From: a virus
Virus record (IMG/VR): IMGVR_UViG_3300012988_000045
Coordinates: 1 to 21,860 of that record
DNA: 21,860 nt
Reading direction: 5' to 3' (one strand)
Notes under the pieces: model-generated
The model's database searches: none
What the model saw: only the letters and a program-made list of their open reading frames with translations
What the model was told of the DNA's origin: nothing
Position numbers and translations under genes: made by a program
Shown here: positions 2,633 to 21,860 of the stretch, piece by piece
How the letters are laid out: each line of letters starts with the position of its first letter
Numbering within the stretch: the first letter of the stretch is position 1

Positions 2633-2822
2633 ATTCAAACTGGCCATCACCTTGATTGTGGTCTGTCTTATTTCTCTGGTGATGTGTAAAGTTGCCACGG
2701 ATCGATTTGACAAATACCATAAATCCATTGACATCATTGTTGGTGGTTGCACCGCAATCTTGGCCGCTGGTACTGGTGCCAATGCAATTTTCATCTTCCT
2801 AGTTGGAATCTGGAAGCTATGA
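2622..2822 (+). CDS. Two-span small membrane protein
   Basis: A 66-residue protein overlapping the end of the upstream gene by 11 bases. Two hydrophobic segments (about 5-23 and 37-62) flank a charged loop of about thirteen residues, predicting an inner-membrane hairpin. The second segment contains small residues (GGCTAILAAGTGANA), suitable for helix packing. A GGAG about 10 bases before the ATG supports the start. A holin-like role cannot be excluded but nothing specific supports it, since the position in the early region argues against lysis. Confidence 0.7.
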   Translation: MLIEFKLAITLIVVCLISLVMCKVATDRFDKYHKSIDIIVGGCTAILAAGTGANAIFIFLVGIWKL

Positions 2823-3271
2823 ACAAGGGTGAGATGCTCAACATGATGCTGGTGATGGCCACAAATGGTCATGCTGGCCAATATGACAAGGGTGGCAACC
2901 CTTACATCCTACATCCGCTGGCCGTGATGCAAATGCTGGGCACTCAGGATGAGGAAGTCCAGTGCATTGCCATTGGTCATGACTTGGTTGAGGATTGTGA
3001 AGTCACCTACAGCGAACTGTATGCGGCTGGCTTCAGTGAACGAGTTGTTCATGGCATCCGTTGCATGACGAAAGTTCCTGGTGAGACCTACGAAGAATAC
3101 AAGGAAAAGGTCAAGTCCAATCCTGACTCAGTCAAAGTCAAGATGTGTGATCTTCGCCACAACACTGATATTCGCCGACTGACTGGTGTCACTCAGCGTG
3201 ACATCACCCGCATGGAACGTTATTTCAAGTTCTACACTGAGTTGAAAGTTTTGATTGGAGAGAAAGAATGA
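2819..3271 (+). CDS. RelA/SpoT-type HD-domain (p)ppGpp hydrolase-like protein
   Basis: This 150-residue protein matches the small HD-domain hydrolases related to SpoT and MESH1. The metal-binding set is visible: His18 in GHAGQYDKGG, His32 in YILHPLAV, His54-Asp55 in IGHDLVEDC, and Asp111 in KMCDLRHN. The Glu58-Asp59 pair that follows HD in hydrolases is also present. There is no synthetase or TGS domain, so only hydrolysis of a guanosine tetraphosphate-like nucleotide is expected, which would blunt the stringent response; this is inference. The start is the ATGA overlap at 2819; the frame extending back to 2747 is not needed. Confidence 0.85.
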   Translation: MNKGEMLNMMLVMATNGHAGQYDKGGNPYILHPLAVMQMLGTQDEEVQCIAIGHDLVEDCEVTYSELYAAGFSERVVHGIRCMTKVPGETYEEYKEKVKSNPDSVKVKMCDLRHNTDIRRLTGVTQRDITRMERYFKFYTELKVLIGEKE

Positions 3272-3702
3272 TGAAGTCTACACTGCTTGCTGCCCTGCGC
3301 ACGGTCACTGATGTACAGCTGGCCGCAGTTGCACTACAGCTAGCTGAAAAGCACCCAGAGGACTTTGCCAACATTTTGGCAAATGAGCTTGGAATCGATG
3401 CTGTCAAAATTCCTCTTCTACAGGAAGACACCAGGCTGCCAATTGAGTTGGTTCCAATTGAAGAGCCACGCTTTGCCATCATCAAGGTCCAAGTGCGTGG
3501 AATGAAGGAGCCTGCATTCTATAGAATCGCGATCCATCACTATTATGAAGCAATCCGTGAGCTCAATGGTTTACACAGGAAAGTTGATGTGATCAAGTTC
3601 ATTCGCAATGAGTACTGCTTGACATTGCTTGAGGCAAAGAACATCGTTGAAGTGATTATTGAGCATATTGGTGATAAGGCATTAAATCACTATCGTGGAT
3701 GA
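3268..3702 (+). CDS. Hypothetical protein with L12 C-terminal-like domain
   Basis: This 144-residue protein begins with an ATG inside the stop of the previous gene (ATGATG, so 3271 is also possible). The N-terminal 40 residues are helical. The C-terminal part, about 65-133, has the layout of the ribosomal protein L7/L12 C-terminal domain: a strand, then KVDVIKFIR (105-113), L118-x-L and EAKNIV (122-127), close to the bL12 consensus K-x-x-VIK-x-VR ... LGL-x-EAK-x-LV. The gene at 6142 is a longer paralog. The L12-like fold is my inference from this motif; the job is unknown. A terminator hairpin follows directly. Confidence 0.75.
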   Translation: MMKSTLLAALRTVTDVQLAAVALQLAEKHPEDFANILANELGIDAVKIPLLQEDTRLPIELVPIEEPRFAIIKVQVRGMKEPAFYRIAIHHYYEAIRELNGLHRKVDVIKFIRNEYCLTLLEAKNIVEVIIEHIGDKALNHYRG

Positions 3703-6119: not shown

Positions 6120-6149
6120 ATGATTTGTGGAGACATTTGTAATGAATAA
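6120..6149 (+). CDS. Possible leaderless 9-codon leader peptide
   Basis: The ATG at 6120 stands where the transcript should begin. It reads MICGDICNE and stops at 6147-6149, after the ATG of the main gene at 6142. Reading through it would carry ribosomes over the start of the next gene and could couple its translation. It could equally be a by-product of the promoter unit's habit of ending in ATG. The peptide has two cysteines and no attenuation-type codon run. Confidence 0.3.
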   Translation: MICGDICNE

Positions 6150-6843
6150 TCAGGTTCTGAAAGCCTTCAGAAAAATGACTGATGAGCAGCTGGTTGAGAT
6201 TTGCTTTGAGATGGCCACGCGTGCCCCAAGCATGTTCCTATCTGCTCTTGAGGAAATTCACCCTGAACCAAAGATCAAGAAAGTCAAGGTCGATGACCTC
6301 TTAATCTACCCACTCAAGTTTATCCCATCCAATGGTGACATGGGACCAGATGGCATCAAAGACGTTTGTGCCGTTACTGTCGATGGTGACACTCATTTCA
6401 TTCCTTTCGAAAGTTACGACAAAGTCGTCAATCTGTTGAGGGAATCAAGACACAATGAAGCAATCAAGTATTTGCGCACCACTTTCAGAAGAAATTTCCC
6501 AACCAGGACGGTTGAGAGGATAGTTAGCTCCATTCATTTCCACCTCAATGTTCCTGAATTCCATATGAAGAAGGTGGCCACACCTCTTGAGTTCATCAAT
6601 GAGAGAATTGGTGGAGGAATGGTCAAGTATAACTTCATTGATGGATCAACATTCCATACGTCAACAAGCACCTTCAAAAAGCTTGCAGCCTTCTTTGACA
6701 AAGAAGGTTCCAAGTGGATGAAGTCAAAGGCCAGAGAGAACGCAACGGCCTTTTGCCTCAGCACCTTGTTGCTGAGTCCGAAATTGTCGAAGGATGTTGT
6801 TGATATTGTGGCCAGCTGGCATGCTGGTAATGGAGCAATATGA
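6142..6843 (+). CDS. Two-copy paralog of the L12-like 3268 protein
   Basis: This protein has 233 residues from the ATG at 6142, which has GGAG 9 bases upstream and aligns with the start of its paralog at 3268; a GTG at 6127 is less likely. The N terminus (VLKAFRKMTDEQLVEICFEM) matches the paralog's first helices. Residues about 75-135 (strand, SYDKVVNLLRE, EAIKYLR, RTVERIVSSI) correspond to its L12-like domain in degenerate form. Residues about 160-227 look like a second copy, with TSTFKKLAAFFDKEGS and KLSKDVVDIVASW. Function unknown; the fold is inferred. Confidence 0.75.
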   Translation: MNNQVLKAFRKMTDEQLVEICFEMATRAPSMFLSALEEIHPEPKIKKVKVDDLLIYPLKFIPSNGDMGPDGIKDVCAVTVDGDTHFIPFESYDKVVNLLRESRHNEAIKYLRTTFRRNFPTRTVERIVSSIHFHLNVPEFHMKKVATPLEFINERIGGGMVKYNFIDGSTFHTSTSTFKKLAAFFDKEGSKWMKSKARENATAFCLSTLLLSPKLSKDVVDIVASWHAGNGAI

Positions 6844-11949: not shown

Positions 11950-12148
11950 TATCAGTGACCATGAGTTGGTTGAAGGGTTCAAACAGGCACTAAGTGTTCA
12001 CATGGGTGCTGCCGTGCTGGATGAATCTAATAGAACACTACTCAAGAGAGCCAAGGGCTTGATTGATGCCAAAATGGATGCCTTCAATCTGATTGTAGAC
12101 ATACAAGTCAAGCTTGATGAGTTTGAAAGACAGCGAAATGGATTTTGA
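11936..12148 (+). CDS. Small helical hypothetical protein
   Basis: A 70-residue protein, mostly helical, with a heptad-like stretch near the end (LIVDIQVKLDEFERQ) that may pair as a coiled coil. The ATG lies within the end of the upstream gene, preceded by AAGGTGAAG. The stop TGA at 12146-12148 lies just before the next start. No motif is recognised. Confidence 0.65.
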   Translation: MPRRDISDHELVEGFKQALSVHMGAAVLDESNRTLLKRAKGLIDAKMDAFNLIVDIQVKLDEFERQRNGF

Positions 12149-12150
12149 TT

Positions 12151-12471
12151 ATGGACTATAGCAATGGAACAAATAGAAGTGACCGCAGGCTAACTGAATT
12201 GGATGTGGCTTTGAATAACAATTTGATGCCTCACAAGTATCCAGTTGGAAGTTTGGTTGAGATCAACAATCCATACTTCCCCGGTGTCAGGATTTGGGTT
12301 GTCAAACAACTTGATGAACCAAAGTCACTCACCCCAAGGTACAGGTTATCCACCCATCACAATGATTACTTGGTTCAAGAGGACAGCCCAATTTGGGACA
12401 CGTACTTGTCCAGAACTTTCGTGGTTGATGAAAAGGATTTGACCATTATCAAAGACCACATATTGCCATGA
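12151..12471 (+). CDS. Hypothetical protein, tandem paralog 1
   Basis: A 106-residue protein from the ATG at 12151; a TTG at 12145 in a TTGA overlap could add two residues. After a polar N-terminal 28 residues, HKYPVGSLVEINNPYFPGVR reads as an SH3-like strand set. The same words open the following gene. The middle has a YRLS strand and the end is a DEKDLTIIKD strand-helix. Its ATGA end lies in the next gene's start. The pair is a recent-looking tandem duplication; function unknown. Confidence 0.7.
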   Translation: MDYSNGTNRSDRRLTELDVALNNNLMPHKYPVGSLVEINNPYFPGVRIWVVKQLDEPKSLTPRYRLSTHHNDYLVQEDSPIWDTYLSRTFVVDEKDLTIIKDHILP

Positions 12472-12728
12472 CCCACAAGTATGCAATTGGAAGCTTGGTA
12501 GAGGTACAGAATCCATATACACCTGGAATCAGGTTGTTCGTGACTCACCAATATTTCAATGCGTGCTGTGGTGAACCAGTATATGCACTGTCCATGTATC
12601 CTGTTGATAAGGAAATTAACATCAACCCAAACAACCCTGAAGATTATGACCATAGGTGGGTTGTCTATGGTCAATTTAGATTGATGCTCAATGTTGCTGA
12701 GCCAAATCTATCAGAGGTAACATCATGA
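12468..12728 (+). CDS. Hypothetical protein, tandem paralog 2
   Basis: An 86-residue protein. Its opening (HKYAIGSLVEVQNPYTPGIR) matches the upstream gene closely, and its later YALS and final strands line up too, but it lacks the upstream N-terminal arm and has an insertion with ACCGE. The first 40 residues look like a small beta barrel. It starts and ends in ATGA overlaps. The shared hallmark is HKY-x2-GSLVE-x2-NPY-x-PG-x-R. Confidence 0.7.
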   Translation: MTHKYAIGSLVEVQNPYTPGIRLFVTHQYFNACCGEPVYALSMYPVDKEININPNNPEDYDHRWVVYGQFRLMLNVAEPNLSEVTS

Positions 12729-12892
12729 AGAATTATCTACTAGCATTCCTACATTTGGTGATGATCTATTACTCACTTGTTTGTGTATTCAAACATACGA
12801 AAGCAGACAAGCTATATAGAGTGGGATTTTTGATACTTGCAGTTGCAAACATAGTATTTGCTTTGATATACATACATAGAACAATTGTGTGA
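12725..12892 (+). CDS. Two-span membrane microprotein
   Basis: A 55-residue protein with two hydrophobic helices, about 4-22 and 33-50, separated by a basic loop (KHTKADKLYR). Positive charge in the loop predicts it lies in the cytoplasm, with both ends outside. It starts in an ATGA overlap and stops 7 bases before the dehydrogenase-like gene's ATG. AT-rich codons are more frequent here than in its neighbours. Function unknown. Confidence 0.65.
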   Translation: MKNYLLAFLHLVMIYYSLVCVFKHTKADKLYRVGFLILAVANIVFALIYIHRTIV

Positions 12893-12899
12893 GGTTGTA

Positions 12900-13700
12900 A
12901 TGAAGTCTTTCAGTGATGTTTTGATTGTTGGATTTGGTTATGTGGGCAAGGCAACCAGGAAGGTTTACCCTGATGCTCAAATTTGGGACCCAATGGCTGG
13001 CCATGACACTCCAATCAATTGGAAGACAATCAATCTAGTCATTGTATGTGTACCAACTCCATCCAACACAATTGATGGATCATGTGATACAACCATCGTT
13101 GAAGATGTAGTCAAGAACTTCATTCCAAATGCTGATGACTATGATGGCGTGATCATGATCAAGTCAACAGTAGCACCGGGCACCACTTCAAAGCTGGTAA
13201 ACCAAACTGGCCATGATATGGTATTTTGCCCTGAATACATTGGTGAAGGTGGCTATTGGGTTCCACCAGAATTTCCAAACCCAACCAATCCAGTTGAGCA
13301 TGGCTTTTCAATCATTGGTGGCCATCCAGATGTTTGTAGCAGAGTCATTGATGGATACCTTATGCCAATCCTTGGCCCATCAACCCGCTACAGGATAATG
13401 AATCCAACTGAAGCAGAGCTTGTCAAGTATTTCACCAACACCTACCTCGCATTGAAGGTCGTTTGGGCAAATGAGATGCGAAAGATTTGTGATCAGGTTC
13501 CAGGAGTGAATTACCACGTGGTGAGGGAAGGTTGGCAGGATGATCCAAGAGCGGGAACTTCCCACTCAGCGGCATTCCCTGACAAACCTGGATTTGATGG
13601 TAAGTGCTTCCCTAAAGACATGGCAGCACTCAGGGCAGCATTCAGGAGTCCATTCCTTGAAGCTATTGAGAACACGAACAAGCAAAACTTGGGTTCCTAA
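12900..13700 (+). CDS. Short UDP-glucose/GDP-mannose dehydrogenase-like enzyme
   Basis: This 266-residue protein matches the NDP-sugar 6-dehydrogenase family. It has the Rossmann GFGYVG (G11, G13, G16), CVPTPS, KSTVAPGTT (88-96), FCPEYIGEG, K176-Y-F-T-N180 in the central helix, and GKCFPKD (235-241) with the catalytic Cys236 and Asp240. These match the residues K, N, C and D required by the four-electron sugar oxidation. Family members are usually about 390-430 residues; the C-terminal sugar-nucleotide-binding domain is largely missing, as the protein ends some 25 residues after the catalytic cysteine. The ATG at 12900 has GAGG upstream. Confidence 0.85.
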   Translation: MKSFSDVLIVGFGYVGKATRKVYPDAQIWDPMAGHDTPINWKTINLVIVCVPTPSNTIDGSCDTTIVEDVVKNFIPNADDYDGVIMIKSTVAPGTTSKLVNQTGHDMVFCPEYIGEGGYWVPPEFPNPTNPVEHGFSIIGGHPDVCSRVIDGYLMPILGPSTRYRIMNPTEAELVKYFTNTYLALKVVWANEMRKICDQVPGVNYHVVREGWQDDPRAGTSHSAAFPDKPGFDGKCFPKDMAALRAAFRSPFLEAIENTNKQNLGS

Positions 13701-18228: not shown

Positions 18229-19860
18229 ATGGCCTTTAAGCTACTAGGATTCAAAATCGGGCGTGATGAAGACGATGACTCACCAGTAATAGTCACCCCA
18301 GTTACACCAGTCAATGACGATGGCGCTATCATCCTTGATAGCACAACCAGTGGTCTATTCATTGACATGGACTTCGCCTTCAAAGACGAGTCCCAGCTGA
18401 TCATCAAATACAGACAGATGGCAATGAACCCAGAAATGGAGAATGCCATCAATGATATCATCGATGAAGCGATTGTTCATGACAGCGCAAAGGGTGATGT
18501 TGTAGGTCTGAACCTTGACAACTCCAAGTTGTCAGATGGCATCAAGACCAAGATCGTCAATGAATTCAACACCGTCTTGAAGTTGCTGAACTTCAACAAG
18601 TTCGGTGATGATGTGTTCAGGAAGTGGTATGTCGATGGCCGTTTGTACTACTTTGTGGCAATTGATGAAAAGGCTCCTTCTGAGGGCATCAAGGCACTCA
18701 TTGGTATTGATCCAAAGAAGATCAAGAAATACAGGCAGATCCGTAAGGACTTGAACAGGGAAGTCGGTGCTCAGATGATCACTGACGTTGAAGAATACTA
18801 CGTCTACAATGACCAGATGTTCTACAACCAGACCAACAATGGCGTTCCAATGGTCCAGCAGTCCTCATCACAAAGTCAGGGTGTTAGAATTTCACCAGAC
18901 TCTATTGTGTATACGACAAGTGGCATCTATGATCCAATCAGAGCCATTGTTCTAGGTCACTTGCACAAGGCAATCAGACCTTTGAACCAGTTGAGATTCA
19001 TGGAAGATTCCACTGTTATCTACAAGACCTCAAGAGCTCCAGAGCGTAGAGTGTTCTATGTAGACGTTGCTGGTATGAACAAGACTAAAGCCGAACAGCA
19101 CATGAAGAACATCATGACAAGCTTTAGAAACAAGATCACTTACAATGCTGACACCGGTGAAATCATTGATGCTCGTCGTCATATTTCCATGTTGGAAGAT
19201 TATTGGTTGCCACGTCGTGATGGTAACAAGTCAACTGAAGTCACAACTCTACCAGGTGGAGCAGGCTTTGGTGATATGACTGACGTTGAATACTTCGCCA
19301 AGAAGCTTTACGATGCACTTGGAATTCCACGTTCAAGACTTGATAGCACCAATTCATTCAGCTTGGGTAAGTCTGGTGAGATCACCAGAGACGAGTTGAA
19401 GTATGCTAAGTTCATTCAGCGTCTTCAGAACAGATTCTCCATCCTATTCGATGAGTTGTTGAAGCGTCAGCTAACACTGAAGGGTGTTTGCAACCTAGAA
19501 GAATGGGAAGAAATCAAGCAGGACATCTTCTACGTCTACAACAAGGACAACAACTATGAAGAGTTGAAGGAATCCGAGTTGTTGAATCAGAGGTTGACCA
19601 CCTTGACAGCCATGACTCAGTGGTTCGGTGCATTCTTCTCAAGAGAGTGGGCATTCAAGAACGTGTTGAAGATGGATGATGTCAAGATCAAGGAAATGTT
19701 GAAGCAGATTGAGAAGGAAGGTCCAATGCCTCTACCACCTCAGCCTGGTGGCGATCCAAATGCACCACAACAGGGTGCAGATCAACAGCAACAGCCTCAG
19801 GAAGCAGATCCGAAAGATGCAATAAATGCTGCAGCTGCAGAGCTATTGAGCGGACTGTAA
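18229..19860 (+). CDS. Portal vertex protein (gp20-like)
   Basis: This 543-residue protein is the portal that forms the dodecamer at the head vertex and passes DNA (T4 gp20 is 524 residues). Landmarks: an N-terminal acidic arm, KYRQMAMNPEMENAINDIID (65-84), YVYNDQMFY, RRHISMLEDYWLPRRDGN, TTLPGGAGFGDMTDVEYFAK (about 341-360), LYDALGIPRSRLD, and a helical C-terminal half. The tail is Pro/Gln rich (QPGGDPNAPQQGADQQQQPQ) before AINAAAAELLSGL. It has a late box and TGGAG upstream, and is followed by the small core gene. Confidence 0.96.
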   Translation: MAFKLLGFKIGRDEDDDSPVIVTPVTPVNDDGAIILDSTTSGLFIDMDFAFKDESQLIIKYRQMAMNPEMENAINDIIDEAIVHDSAKGDVVGLNLDNSKLSDGIKTKIVNEFNTVLKLLNFNKFGDDVFRKWYVDGRLYYFVAIDEKAPSEGIKALIGIDPKKIKKYRQIRKDLNREVGAQMITDVEEYYVYNDQMFYNQTNNGVPMVQQSSSQSQGVRISPDSIVYTTSGIYDPIRAIVLGHLHKAIRPLNQLRFMEDSTVIYKTSRAPERRVFYVDVAGMNKTKAEQHMKNIMTSFRNKITYNADTGEIIDARRHISMLEDYWLPRRDGNKSTEVTTLPGGAGFGDMTDVEYFAKKLYDALGIPRSRLDSTNSFSLGKSGEITRDELKYAKFIQRLQNRFSILFDELLKRQLTLKGVCNLEEWEEIKQDIFYVYNKDNNYEELKESELLNQRLTTLTAMTQWFGAFFSREWAFKNVLKMDDVKIKEMLKQIEKEGPMPLPPQPGGDPNAPQQGADQQQQPQEADPKDAINAAAAELLSGL

Positions 19861-19895: not shown

Positions 19896-20054
19896 ATGGA
19901 CAAGACAAATTTCGTACAACAGGTTGTAGATAAGGATGCTTTGGGATTCCAGCACCAGTTTAATGCTGCTATGAATGACAAGGTTTCCTTGGCTCTCGAT
20001 GAGTTCAAGCAAGAAGTTGCTAAGGATATGTTTGGATCAGTCGGAGAAGAGTAA
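19896..20054 (+). CDS. Small prohead-core-like protein (gp67-like)
   Basis: A 52-residue acidic helical protein in the place of T4 gene 67, directly after the portal. The ending, LALDEFKQEVAKDMF, resembles the small core-protein motif of environmental T4-like phages, in which a V-x-x-x-(L/I)-D-x-x-K-x-E-V-A helix closes the chain. It should be a scaffold component inside the prohead, removed by proteolysis. The ATG at 19896 lacks a strong ribosome site (AGGGTGA 7 bases upstream). It overlaps the next gene by TAATG. Assigned by place and motif, with fair confidence. Confidence 0.75.
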   Translation: MDKTNFVQQVVDKDALGFQHQFNAAMNDKVSLALDEFKQEVAKDMFGSVGEE

Positions 20055-21043
20055 TGCTTACACCAGCAAATCATATTGTTAGTGGGGAATCAGTAGATGC
20101 TTTGAAGAGGCACATACGCTCACACTTGAAGATCTATTCATTGGCTCTTCATGAGTTGGATGAGATTGAGGCTAACACCCCAACGACTCCAACACCTCCT
20201 CCAGCAAGATATGACGAAAACGTTGACCCACCAATTGCTACCACAAGGCCATTGGCTCCAATTGGACCAGATCTAACTGATCCAAAGAAGCAGCCACCAG
20301 CTGAAGTTGTCAACACACCTATCAAGCACAAGACCTTCATGCCACCTGCAAAGGTTTCTGAAGAAGCTCTTGTTGAAGCAGTTGCTGCTCTAGCCAAGAA
20401 GACCAAGCCACGTCTATCCATGAAGTTCAAGGACTTCGCTGATTGGCATGAGCGTGCTGACTTCCAAGGCAAGCATGAAACCAAGTTCAAGATCCATGAC
20501 AATGGCAACAAGACTTCCGCCTACAAGGGTGACAAGCACTTGGGTACTTTCCACCATGATAAGAAGCATGGTGAAGTCTATAGAGAAGAAACTGAGCTAG
20601 ACGAAGGCGCAGCAAAGGACTACACCCCACACAACCATCATGAAACATGGAAGGACCACGTCAAGGGCACTTACAAGGGTGCTGAGTTCAAGCAAGGTGT
20701 TGAGCCAAAGGGTGCTGACTGGGAAGGTCACACTGTAACTCATGCACATTGGAAAGATAAGGTCGTTGCCAGCTTCGCCCACCATGCTCCTGTAAAGAAG
20801 GATAACAAGGTTGTTGATGGATATGGTTCAGTTGACCACAGATCAGTTCATGAAGAATATGTTACTGAGCTCAACAAGGAAACTGTGAAGAGCTATCTTT
20901 CAAAGTCCAAGAAGGAAGTCAAGGATGTAAAGGCATATGCTGCAGCATCCCAGGGTGGTCCATCTAAGGAAGGCAGATTGACAAGCTTCTTGAAGAAGCG
21001 TACTGCTGGTCAGGCAAGAGCAAAGGCAAGTCTTGCAAAATGA
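20054..21043 (+). CDS. Modular charged protein in the prohead-core region
   Basis: A 329-residue protein I do not recognise as a whole. Residues 1-40 are helical and end ALHELDEIEA; 41-100 are a Pro/Thr-rich linker. Two repeats follow: A, 128-184, and B, 196-276, each with a Trp near its start, a GDK-x-x-(G/A)-x-F-x-H core (159-168, 234-244) and an EE-containing acidic end (REETELDEG, HEEYVTELNKE). A basic tail (286-329) ends KASLAK. The same module occurs in the gene at 21315. LDE and TEL resemble prohead protease sites. Probably an internal head or scaffold protein; this is inference. Confidence 0.7.
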   Translation: MLTPANHIVSGESVDALKRHIRSHLKIYSLALHELDEIEANTPTTPTPPPARYDENVDPPIATTRPLAPIGPDLTDPKKQPPAEVVNTPIKHKTFMPPAKVSEEALVEAVAALAKKTKPRLSMKFKDFADWHERADFQGKHETKFKIHDNGNKTSAYKGDKHLGTFHHDKKHGEVYREETELDEGAAKDYTPHNHHETWKDHVKGTYKGAEFKQGVEPKGADWEGHTVTHAHWKDKVVASFAHHAPVKKDNKVVDGYGSVDHRSVHEEYVTELNKETVKSYLSKSKKEVKDVKAYAAASQGGPSKEGRLTSFLKKRTAGQARAKASLAK

Positions 21044-21315
21044 GAAGCATGTCCAAAATAAGGGCGATGTTGGAAGAGGCTACCAAAGACCCAGCACTCT
21101 TGGCTCATGCAGCTAAGAAGAAGGAATTGGAAGGCAAGATATCTGAACATCGTGCGGCATGGGAAGGTGCTCAACATGACTTGAGAAAGCACATGGAAGA
21201 TCATCCAAACTATGCCAAGAATAAGGCGAAGAGGGATGCCACTGCTGCCAAGCGTCCTCGCCATGATGGATATGAAGAAGGTCGTTCTACACCAAGGAAG
21301 AATGGAAACTGGTAA
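21040..21315 (+). CDS. Small charged helical protein, core region
   Basis: A 91-residue protein in an ATGA overlap. It is highly charged: a helix (KIRAMLEEATKDPALLAHAA), KKKELEGKISEHRAAWEGA, and a basic Arg/Lys/Asn-rich tail (RPRHDGYEEGRSTPRKNGNW). The composition, with many Lys, Arg, Glu and few hydrophobics beyond Ala, suits an internal head protein or a DNA-bound component. MRSMS could start at the second Met at 21049. No family is recognised. Confidence 0.65.
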   Translation: MRSMSKIRAMLEEATKDPALLAHAAKKKELEGKISEHRAAWEGAQHDLRKHMEDHPNYAKNKAKRDATAAKRPRHDGYEEGRSTPRKNGNW

Positions 21316-21860
21316 TGAGTGAAAAACTAGACAAGGTAAAGTCAGCTGTTGCTTCCCTCAAGAAGCAATACTCAGGTCCAAGATCAACTGTTGATCTTGA
21401 TAAGGCCAAGTCAAAGCATGCCGACACTTGGCACCCAGACAACTTCAAGAAGGAAGAAACCATCGATGAGGTCGCCAATGTTTCACACGTTGGTGGTATT
21501 GCTGGAGAAGCTGGTCACCAGTATCACAAGTGGGGTGGCAGTTCTGGTGGTGTTGATGGTTGGAAGAAACTAGTAAACAAGCACCACCCAGAATCAAAGT
21601 TTAGTGATCATGGCGAAGGTGATACCAAGAAAACCAAGGCCCATGTTGGTGAAAAGGAAGTTGGCTCATTCAGCCACTATAACAATTCATCCAAGACGTT
21701 GGTCAAGGAAGAAGTCATTGATGAAGTCAGAATAACCTCATCAATGAGAGATGGTGCCAAGGCATACAATGATGGAAAGAAGCATGGTCAGGGTGGTGCA
21801 GTAAAGAGCTCCATAGATTATGGAAGATTTCAGCCACACTATGATAGAGGATATGCCCAC
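21315..21860 (+). CDS. Modular prohead-core-region protein, 3' end outside window
   Basis: The reading frame opens at the ATG in TAATG and runs 182 codons to the window edge with no stop. It carries FKKEETIDEVANVS (44-57), then a module with GWKKLVNK (82-89), GEKEVGSFSHY (112-122) and LVKEEVIDEVRI (129-140), matching repeats in the gene at 20054. The IDE before V (50-52 and 135-137) is of the hydrophobic-x-Glu type that the T4 gp21 prohead protease cuts. A further part begins SMRDGAKAYNDGKKHGQGGA. Likely a processed internal head protein. Confidence 0.7.
   Translation, partial: MSEKLDKVKSAVASLKKQYSGPRSTVDLDKAKSKHADTWHPDNFKKEETIDEVANVSHVGGIAGEAGHQYHKWGGSSGGVDGWKKLVNKHHPESKFSDHGEGDTKKTKAHVGEKEVGSFSHYNNSSKTLVKEEVIDEVRITSSMRDGAKAYNDGKKHGQGGAVKSSIDYGRFQPHYDRGYAH

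Follow-up and report, generated by a model that had tools for sequence, protein, structure and literature searches.

Module chains with gp21-type linkers between the portal and prohead protease genes of a T4-type virus: candidate prohead-core polyproteins

The window (the whole stretch of viral DNA analyzed here, 21,860 bp, IMG/VR record IMGVR_UViG_3300012988_000045) carries a T4-type late block, in which Pfam and PHROG scans identify the tail sheath, the tail tube, and the portal protein gp20. Four tightly overlapping ORFs lie 3' of gp20, namely a 52-aa ORF, P1, P2, and P3; the stop codon of the 52-aa ORF overlaps the start codon of P1 (TAATG). The features of this stretch are as follows (arrow, predicted cut).

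18229..19860, + strand: gp20 portal gene (Portal_T4, E 1.4e-157; phrog_213, E 2.5e-181), upstream border of the stretch
19896..20054, + strand: 52-aa ORF, gp67-like prohead-core (weak phrog_1064 'prohead' match, E 0.011)
20054..21043, + strand: P1, 329-aa chain protein (ORF)
20360..20377, + strand: EEALVE, candidate linker and cut site after P1 residue 108 (from sequence; a weaker candidate)
20378..20605, + strand: copy 1, W...GDKxxGTFxH module, P1 109-184, ending in linker EETELDE (shuffles, beta meander)
20606..20869, + strand: putative copy 2, P1 185-272, ending in linker EEYVTE (similarity to copies 1 and 3 not significant)
20870..21040, + strand: diverged SK-x-TL-xx-Y helical module, P1 273-329, directly after EEYVTE (shuffles, model)
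21040..21315, + strand: P2, 91-aa basic ORF, net +7; its start overlaps the P1 stop and its stop overlaps the P3 start
21315..21860, + strand: P3 chain protein, residues 1-182 (ORF open at the end of the window)
21453..21470, + strand: linker EETIDE↓V of P3, predicted cut after residue 52 (from sequence)
21471..21725, + strand: copy 3, W...GEKEVGSFSH module, P3 53-137, ending in linker EEVIDE
21708..21725, + strand: linker EEVIDE↓V of P3, predicted cut after residue 137 (from sequence)
21726..21860, + strand: start of the next module, P3 138-182, which ends on contig L003 with linker EEVLLE↓I (residue 195)

Elsewhere, the window encodes a cyclic-phosphate processing receiver domain (1081-1398; cREC_REC, PF20274, E 9.6e-24), whose family has been discussed in connection with RNA repair and NAD systems of phages, and a phage UDP-glucose/GDP-mannose dehydrogenase (12885-13700; PF00984, E 6.6e-19). 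An ORF with an HD_4 domain (2747-3271; E 1.6e-5, below the curated cut-off) is possibly small alarmone-hydrolase-like. Tandem paralogues at 12145-12471 and 12468-12728 have GSLVE(I/V)xNPYxPGxR in common and give no Pfam match. The ORFs at 3268-3702 and 6127-6843 have similar N-termini (24% over 75 aa, pair E 0.003), and the former contains a weak ribosomal L7/L12 C-terminal-like stretch.

P3 continues on another IMG/VR contig. L003 starts with the last 123 bases of the window, with zero mismatches, and L003:1-1557 encodes P3 residues 142-659 in frame, so that full-length P3 has 659 aa. Since the reading frame and the T4 gene order agree, we infer that the window and L003 belong to one locus. 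P3 is followed on L003 by a 98-aa very basic protein, a 129-aa ORF, the prohead protease gp21 (L003:2285-2932; Peptidase_S77, PF03420, E 1.3e-37; phrog_207, E 3.3e-76), the scaffold protein gp22 (T4_CASP, E 8.3e-61), and the capsid protein gp23 (Gp23, E 2.7e-120). The P1 and P3 genes are thus positioned between gp20 and gp21. Because L003 continues P3 and then encodes gp21, the gp20–gp21 interval, read across the two contigs, is 4161 bp; the corresponding interval is 0.3-0.7 kb in phages C48C1, Melnitz, and S-SSM7. The 98-aa strongly basic protein (L003:1554-1850) starts with MSTFKEHLAE↓A, a leader like the capsid targeting sequence (CTS), followed by an Arg/Lys-rich body; in loci L043 and L083 a homologue is encoded just before gp21.

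Neither P1 nor P3 gives a match in INPHARED by tblastn, even at E 1, and in IMG/VR the whole sequences retrieve near-identical fragments only. P1 has no hit in Pfam or PHROGs, and scans against these databases match neither protein to gp22, gp67, gp68, or head internal proteins. Relatives of P2 were searched, and none was found.

The preliminary description of this DNA read P1 and P3 as carrying three copies of one repeated module. All the strings it quoted are found in the ORFs P1 (20054-21043) and P3 (21315-end). Copy 1 (P1 124-175) and copy 3 (P3 53-128) align with a Smith–Waterman score of 65, whereas shuffled sequences score 32.8 ± 6.2 and none of 500 reaches 65. The similarity of copy 2 to copy 1 or copy 3 is not significant by the same procedure. 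Therefore, two W-module copies are certain, not three. For the W module of copies 1 and 3, a search for relatives found none. In an AlphaFold model of P1 (mean pLDDT 58), the C-terminal module is helical and copy 1 forms a four-strand beta meander (P1 145-178, block pLDDT 69-90); copy 2 is left unmodelled at a pLDDT of about 30-40. The P1 sequence HEEYVTELNKETVKSY comprises a linker and, after it, a divergent copy of the very widespread helical SK-x-TL-xx-Y module; the alignment of this copy with P3 395-444 has a score that 2 of 500 shuffles reach.

What recurs in P1 and P3 is an acidic linker ending in (L/I/V)-x-E, positioned between unlike small domains. The acidic ends had been taken as the end of the repeated module; they are far above chance, but they join unlike modules. 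P3 has seven strict linkers, which end at residues 52, 137, 195, 255, 323, 394, and 450 with a spacing of 56-85 residues and read, from N to C, KEETIDE↓V, KEEVIDE↓V, KEEVLLE↓I, TEEVIEE↓S, GEEIDE↓S, KEEVIDE↓V, and AEEAIDE↓S. Additional sites are DLLE↓V (538) and MNE↓A (585). The pieces between the linkers are unlike each other and, without the acidic linker, mostly basic. We count it against a reading in which the linkers are cut that P3 is read across two contigs.

Both proteins are rich in K, E, H, and D, which could in principle make the pattern a by-product of charged, low-complexity composition. Composition-preserving shuffles argue otherwise: full-length P3 contains 6 EE-x-(I/L/V)-x-E motifs where 0.03 are expected, a count reached by 0 of 5000 shuffles, and P1 and P3 together contain 8 where 0.06 are expected. 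These counts, together with the conservation of the motif at fixed border positions across independent loci, refute the explanation by composition, to which we assign a negligible probability.

More than 100 similar chains are found in IMG/VR. The pattern x-(DENK)-E-x-SK-x-TL-xx-Y-xx-KA, written for one P3 module after an earlier one (EE-x-IDE-x-SK) had proved too strict, has at least 120 matches, in ORFs of up to 1492 aa among the matches listed. In these ORFs, module follows module, with EEVEQLDE↓LSK..., EEVELDE↓A..., and similar sequences in between. Several related chains start with an MKSxK..(I/L)xE leader resembling the T4 capsid targeting sequence. The modules of P3 were assigned by HMM searches; single-linkage clustering was dropped, as it had merged unrelated families.

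P3 256-323: PPxILxRR family (HMM)
P3 395-450: SKTL family (HMM; 279 domains, 154 loci)
P3 451-538: DGS family (HMM; 38 loci)
P3 539-594: DFVHS family (HMM; 132 loci)
P3 590-659: RY..HGKKASG family (few true members)

The five families occur in 35 different orders across 270 ORFs. Apart from P3, six ORFs have PPxILxRR and DGS together, with PPxILxRR first, and several of them (e.g. L043, L083, and L124) are located between gp20 and gp21; in P3, further modules separate the two. Two cultured phages encode modules of these families: gp064 (683 aa) of Caulobacter phage Cr30, which grows on the standard laboratory strain C. crescentus CB15, has four SKTL modules with LxE linkers, the gp21 homologue being encoded elsewhere in the Cr30 genome, and gp058 of Sinorhizobium phage phiM12 is a small gp20–gp21 protein with a DGS module. 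The SKTL module with its linker is predicted by AlphaFold to be a helical hairpin (mean pLDDT 70), for which a fold search gives no significant PDB match, the best being ribosomal-protein-sized hairpins with E 2.5 or worse.

Some chains also contain recognizable domains. The 1154-aa chain at L111:2454-5915 opens with a cytidylyltransferase/NMNAT-like module (phrog_3041, E 4.8e-62); next come EEQELDE, a highly basic module, and then several SKTL modules, the enzyme being one bead on the string. An 879-aa ORF at L021:1324-3960, directly after gp23, combines a DUF192 domain (E 4.3e-28) with an SKTL module.

To avoid circularity in locating the linkers, we sampled DFVHS modules in IMG/VR with a pattern for the module body only, blind to the linker. 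In the new copies, (I/L/V/M)-x-E ends exactly 13 residues before 'DF' in 110/110, against a background of 0.20 for a 12-residue window. Glu occupies position -1 in 100%, and position -3 is L56/I29/V14/M1. The linker is present regardless of whether the module opens the protein, follows a short MKxFK...-type leader, or stands mid-chain. SKTL modules outside the selection of the first pattern have the motif at the exact site in 71/73 (background 0.022); the two exceptions appear to be errors of register. For the RY..HGKKASG family, whose HMM drifted, we used the four clear members (P3, L074, L107, and L038); (I/L/M)-(D/N)-E-A precedes the module in all four. The DGS family shows no linker excess at its border (14/32 against a background of 0.40), and this lack of a strict border linker counts against cutting.

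The linkers could instead be conserved structural borders, such as helix caps or docking motifs, that are never cut, the chains then being long structural or scaffold proteins. In agreement with this, two module families have the motif within their conserved start, and the AlphaFold helix extends through the SKTL linker (pLDDT 60-75), which we likewise count against cutting. However, one and the same motif is found in front of unlike modules and also behind N-terminal leaders; its conservation is confined to positions -1 and -3, with variable residues at -2 and -4, in line with the published signature of gp21 sites; and the genes adjoin gp21. We therefore consider uncut structural borders improbable.

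All 62 DFVHS loci on fragments with T4-type genes are in the gp20–gp21 stretch (39 between gp20 and gp21, 17 after gp20, and 6 before gp21), and most SKTL loci on such fragments are as well. Fragments lacking T4 head genes account for over half of the loci; they are silent on position and are counted against the cutting reading. In L083, L124, and L044, an SKTL module with its linker is found inside gp22 (phrog_237, E down to 5.5e-82), which in T4 is a gp21 substrate with several cut sites. The L024 chain starts with a prohead domain of phrog_1064 (E 3.6e-6), to which the modules are fused. The preliminary description had placed the two genes where T4 has its prohead core and had seen in them a chain of domains with gp21-type sites; both views are supported by the chains in the gp20–gp21 stretch or inside gp22, the gp21 homologue downstream, and the motif at the module borders.

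As leads only, we used two T4 sites, which we take to be ...FLTE↓AEIGG in gp23 and MKTYQEFIAE↓A in IPIII. Among 34 gp23 sequences from related loci, a candidate site is readable in 28, and it is (L/I)xE↓(A/S/T/G) in 28/28; the candidate site in the phage's own gp23 is FLTE↓TAPV. T4 gp21 cuts after L/I-X-E (PMC9026906), a rule that the linkers of P1 and P3 resemble. From the linker statistics, these linkers are predicted to be cut as well.

If gp21 cuts the chains, the products could be scaffold material that, like most fragments of T4 gp22, gp67, and gp68, fills the core and then leaves the head, with no injected cargo. The genes occupy the place of T4 gp67 and gp68, SKTL modules are found inside gp22 and behind a gp67-like domain, no enzyme fold is recognized in the modules of the studied phage, and T4 core proteins are cut into fragments that mostly exit (PMC9026906). 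P1 and P3 themselves show no homology to gp22, and their compact, shuffled modules differ from one coiled scaffold. On the other hand, modules that are distinct, conserved, and shuffled would be odd for packing material. Moreover, some chains contain an enzyme (the cytidylyltransferase of L111), and chain-type and NMNAT proteins are reported in the purified virion of cyanophage S-SCSM1. On balance, scaffold material without injected cargo seems rather unlikely to us.

In S-SCSM1, which is cultured, the label 'virion protein' is given to a protein carrying an EEVELDE linker, to the proteins neighbouring it, and to an NMNAT. The corresponding study reportedly detected 45 virion proteins by mass spectrometry.

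The closest precedent for retention in the head and injection is provided by the T4 internal proteins (PMC3012670, PMC9958956). IPI, IPII, IPIII, and Alt are CTS-targeted, processed by gp21, and injected. The chains resemble them in the T4-type phage background, in the gp21-type L/I-X-E sites, in the mostly basic, small, and diverse predicted products, and in the CTS-like MKSxK...xE leader of several related chains. The T4 internal proteins are, however, single small proteins that lose one leader (Alt also loses a C-terminal piece), whereas the chains string many unlike modules in one gene, with a site at each joint. An N-terminal capsid targeting sequence of about 10 residues is absent from P1, which starts with MLTPANHIV..., and from P3, which starts with MSEKLDKV...; CTS-like leaders are found only in related chains and in the 98-aa protein of L003. 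The lack of an MKTYQEF-type leader in P1 and P3 counts against the cutting reading.

Polyvalent proteins (Iyer et al. 2017), including DarA and DdrB of phage P1, likewise have several domains in one phage polypeptide and are thought to travel in the head (PMC5512222). Such proteins would be injected whole, and an embedded or host protease would free the effectors in the new cell. They have recognizable effectors and often their own peptidase; Pfam and PHROG scans find neither a peptidase nor a recognizable effector domain in the P1 and P3 chains, the typical polyvalent domains are absent, and the linkers fit the phage's own head protease. We therefore regard injection of whole chains as highly improbable. 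In phages phiKZ and SPN3US, the S80 prohead protease also cuts inner-body and ejection proteins after a short motif ending in Glu, and many head proteins are cut, with redundant sites in the propeptides. In contrast to what the chains suggest, these cuts remove propeptides and the mature part stays one protein.

Taken together, we think it likely that P1 and P3 are prohead-core polyproteins that gp21 cuts into mini-proteins, some or all of which remain with the DNA and are delivered to the host. The gene position and the T4 precedent suggest that the chains would be synthesized late in infection, together with the rest of the head-core proteins, and would become part of the core that forms on the portal. 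During head maturation, gp21 would cut after the Glu of each (L/I/V)-x-E linker, and a single long protein would yield about ten mini-proteins, each 50-90 residues long and, leaving aside the acidic linker, in most cases basic. The DNA would then be packaged around the pieces that stay, and some or all of them may be injected as T4 internal proteins are. Retention and injection are the weakest steps of this proposal; they are suggested by analogy with the T4 internal proteins, by the L111 enzyme, and by S-SCSM1. Phages would exchange, duplicate, and insert the linker-plus-module unit, with gp22 and the position behind gp67 among the insertion sites, and one gene could therefore carry a changing set of cargo. 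The chain design probably allows a single gene to supply the head with many mini-proteins.

T4 internal proteins are anti-defence and host-takeover factors, and to our knowledge the internal cargo of most T4-like phages is unannotated. The chain design recurs, unannotated, in many environmental viruses. We tentatively propose, as a reading somewhat short of probable, a general cargo-cassette system in which T4-like phages from many environments would fill their heads from polyproteins of interchangeable modules, each with its own gp21 site, the inserts being co-packaged, released, injected, and evolving by swapping. The ingredients are known, namely gp21, its motif, CTS-targeted cargo, and multi-domain phage effectors. 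Their combination into shuffled polyproteins appears to be new, as Pfam, PHROGs, and the open literature searched, outside which most subscription papers lie, contain no description of such chains. If the predicted cutting takes place, it would show that tailed phages employ true polyproteins and process them with the capsid protease, and the linker would serve as a simple sequence tag for hundreds of unrecognized head-packaged mini-proteins.
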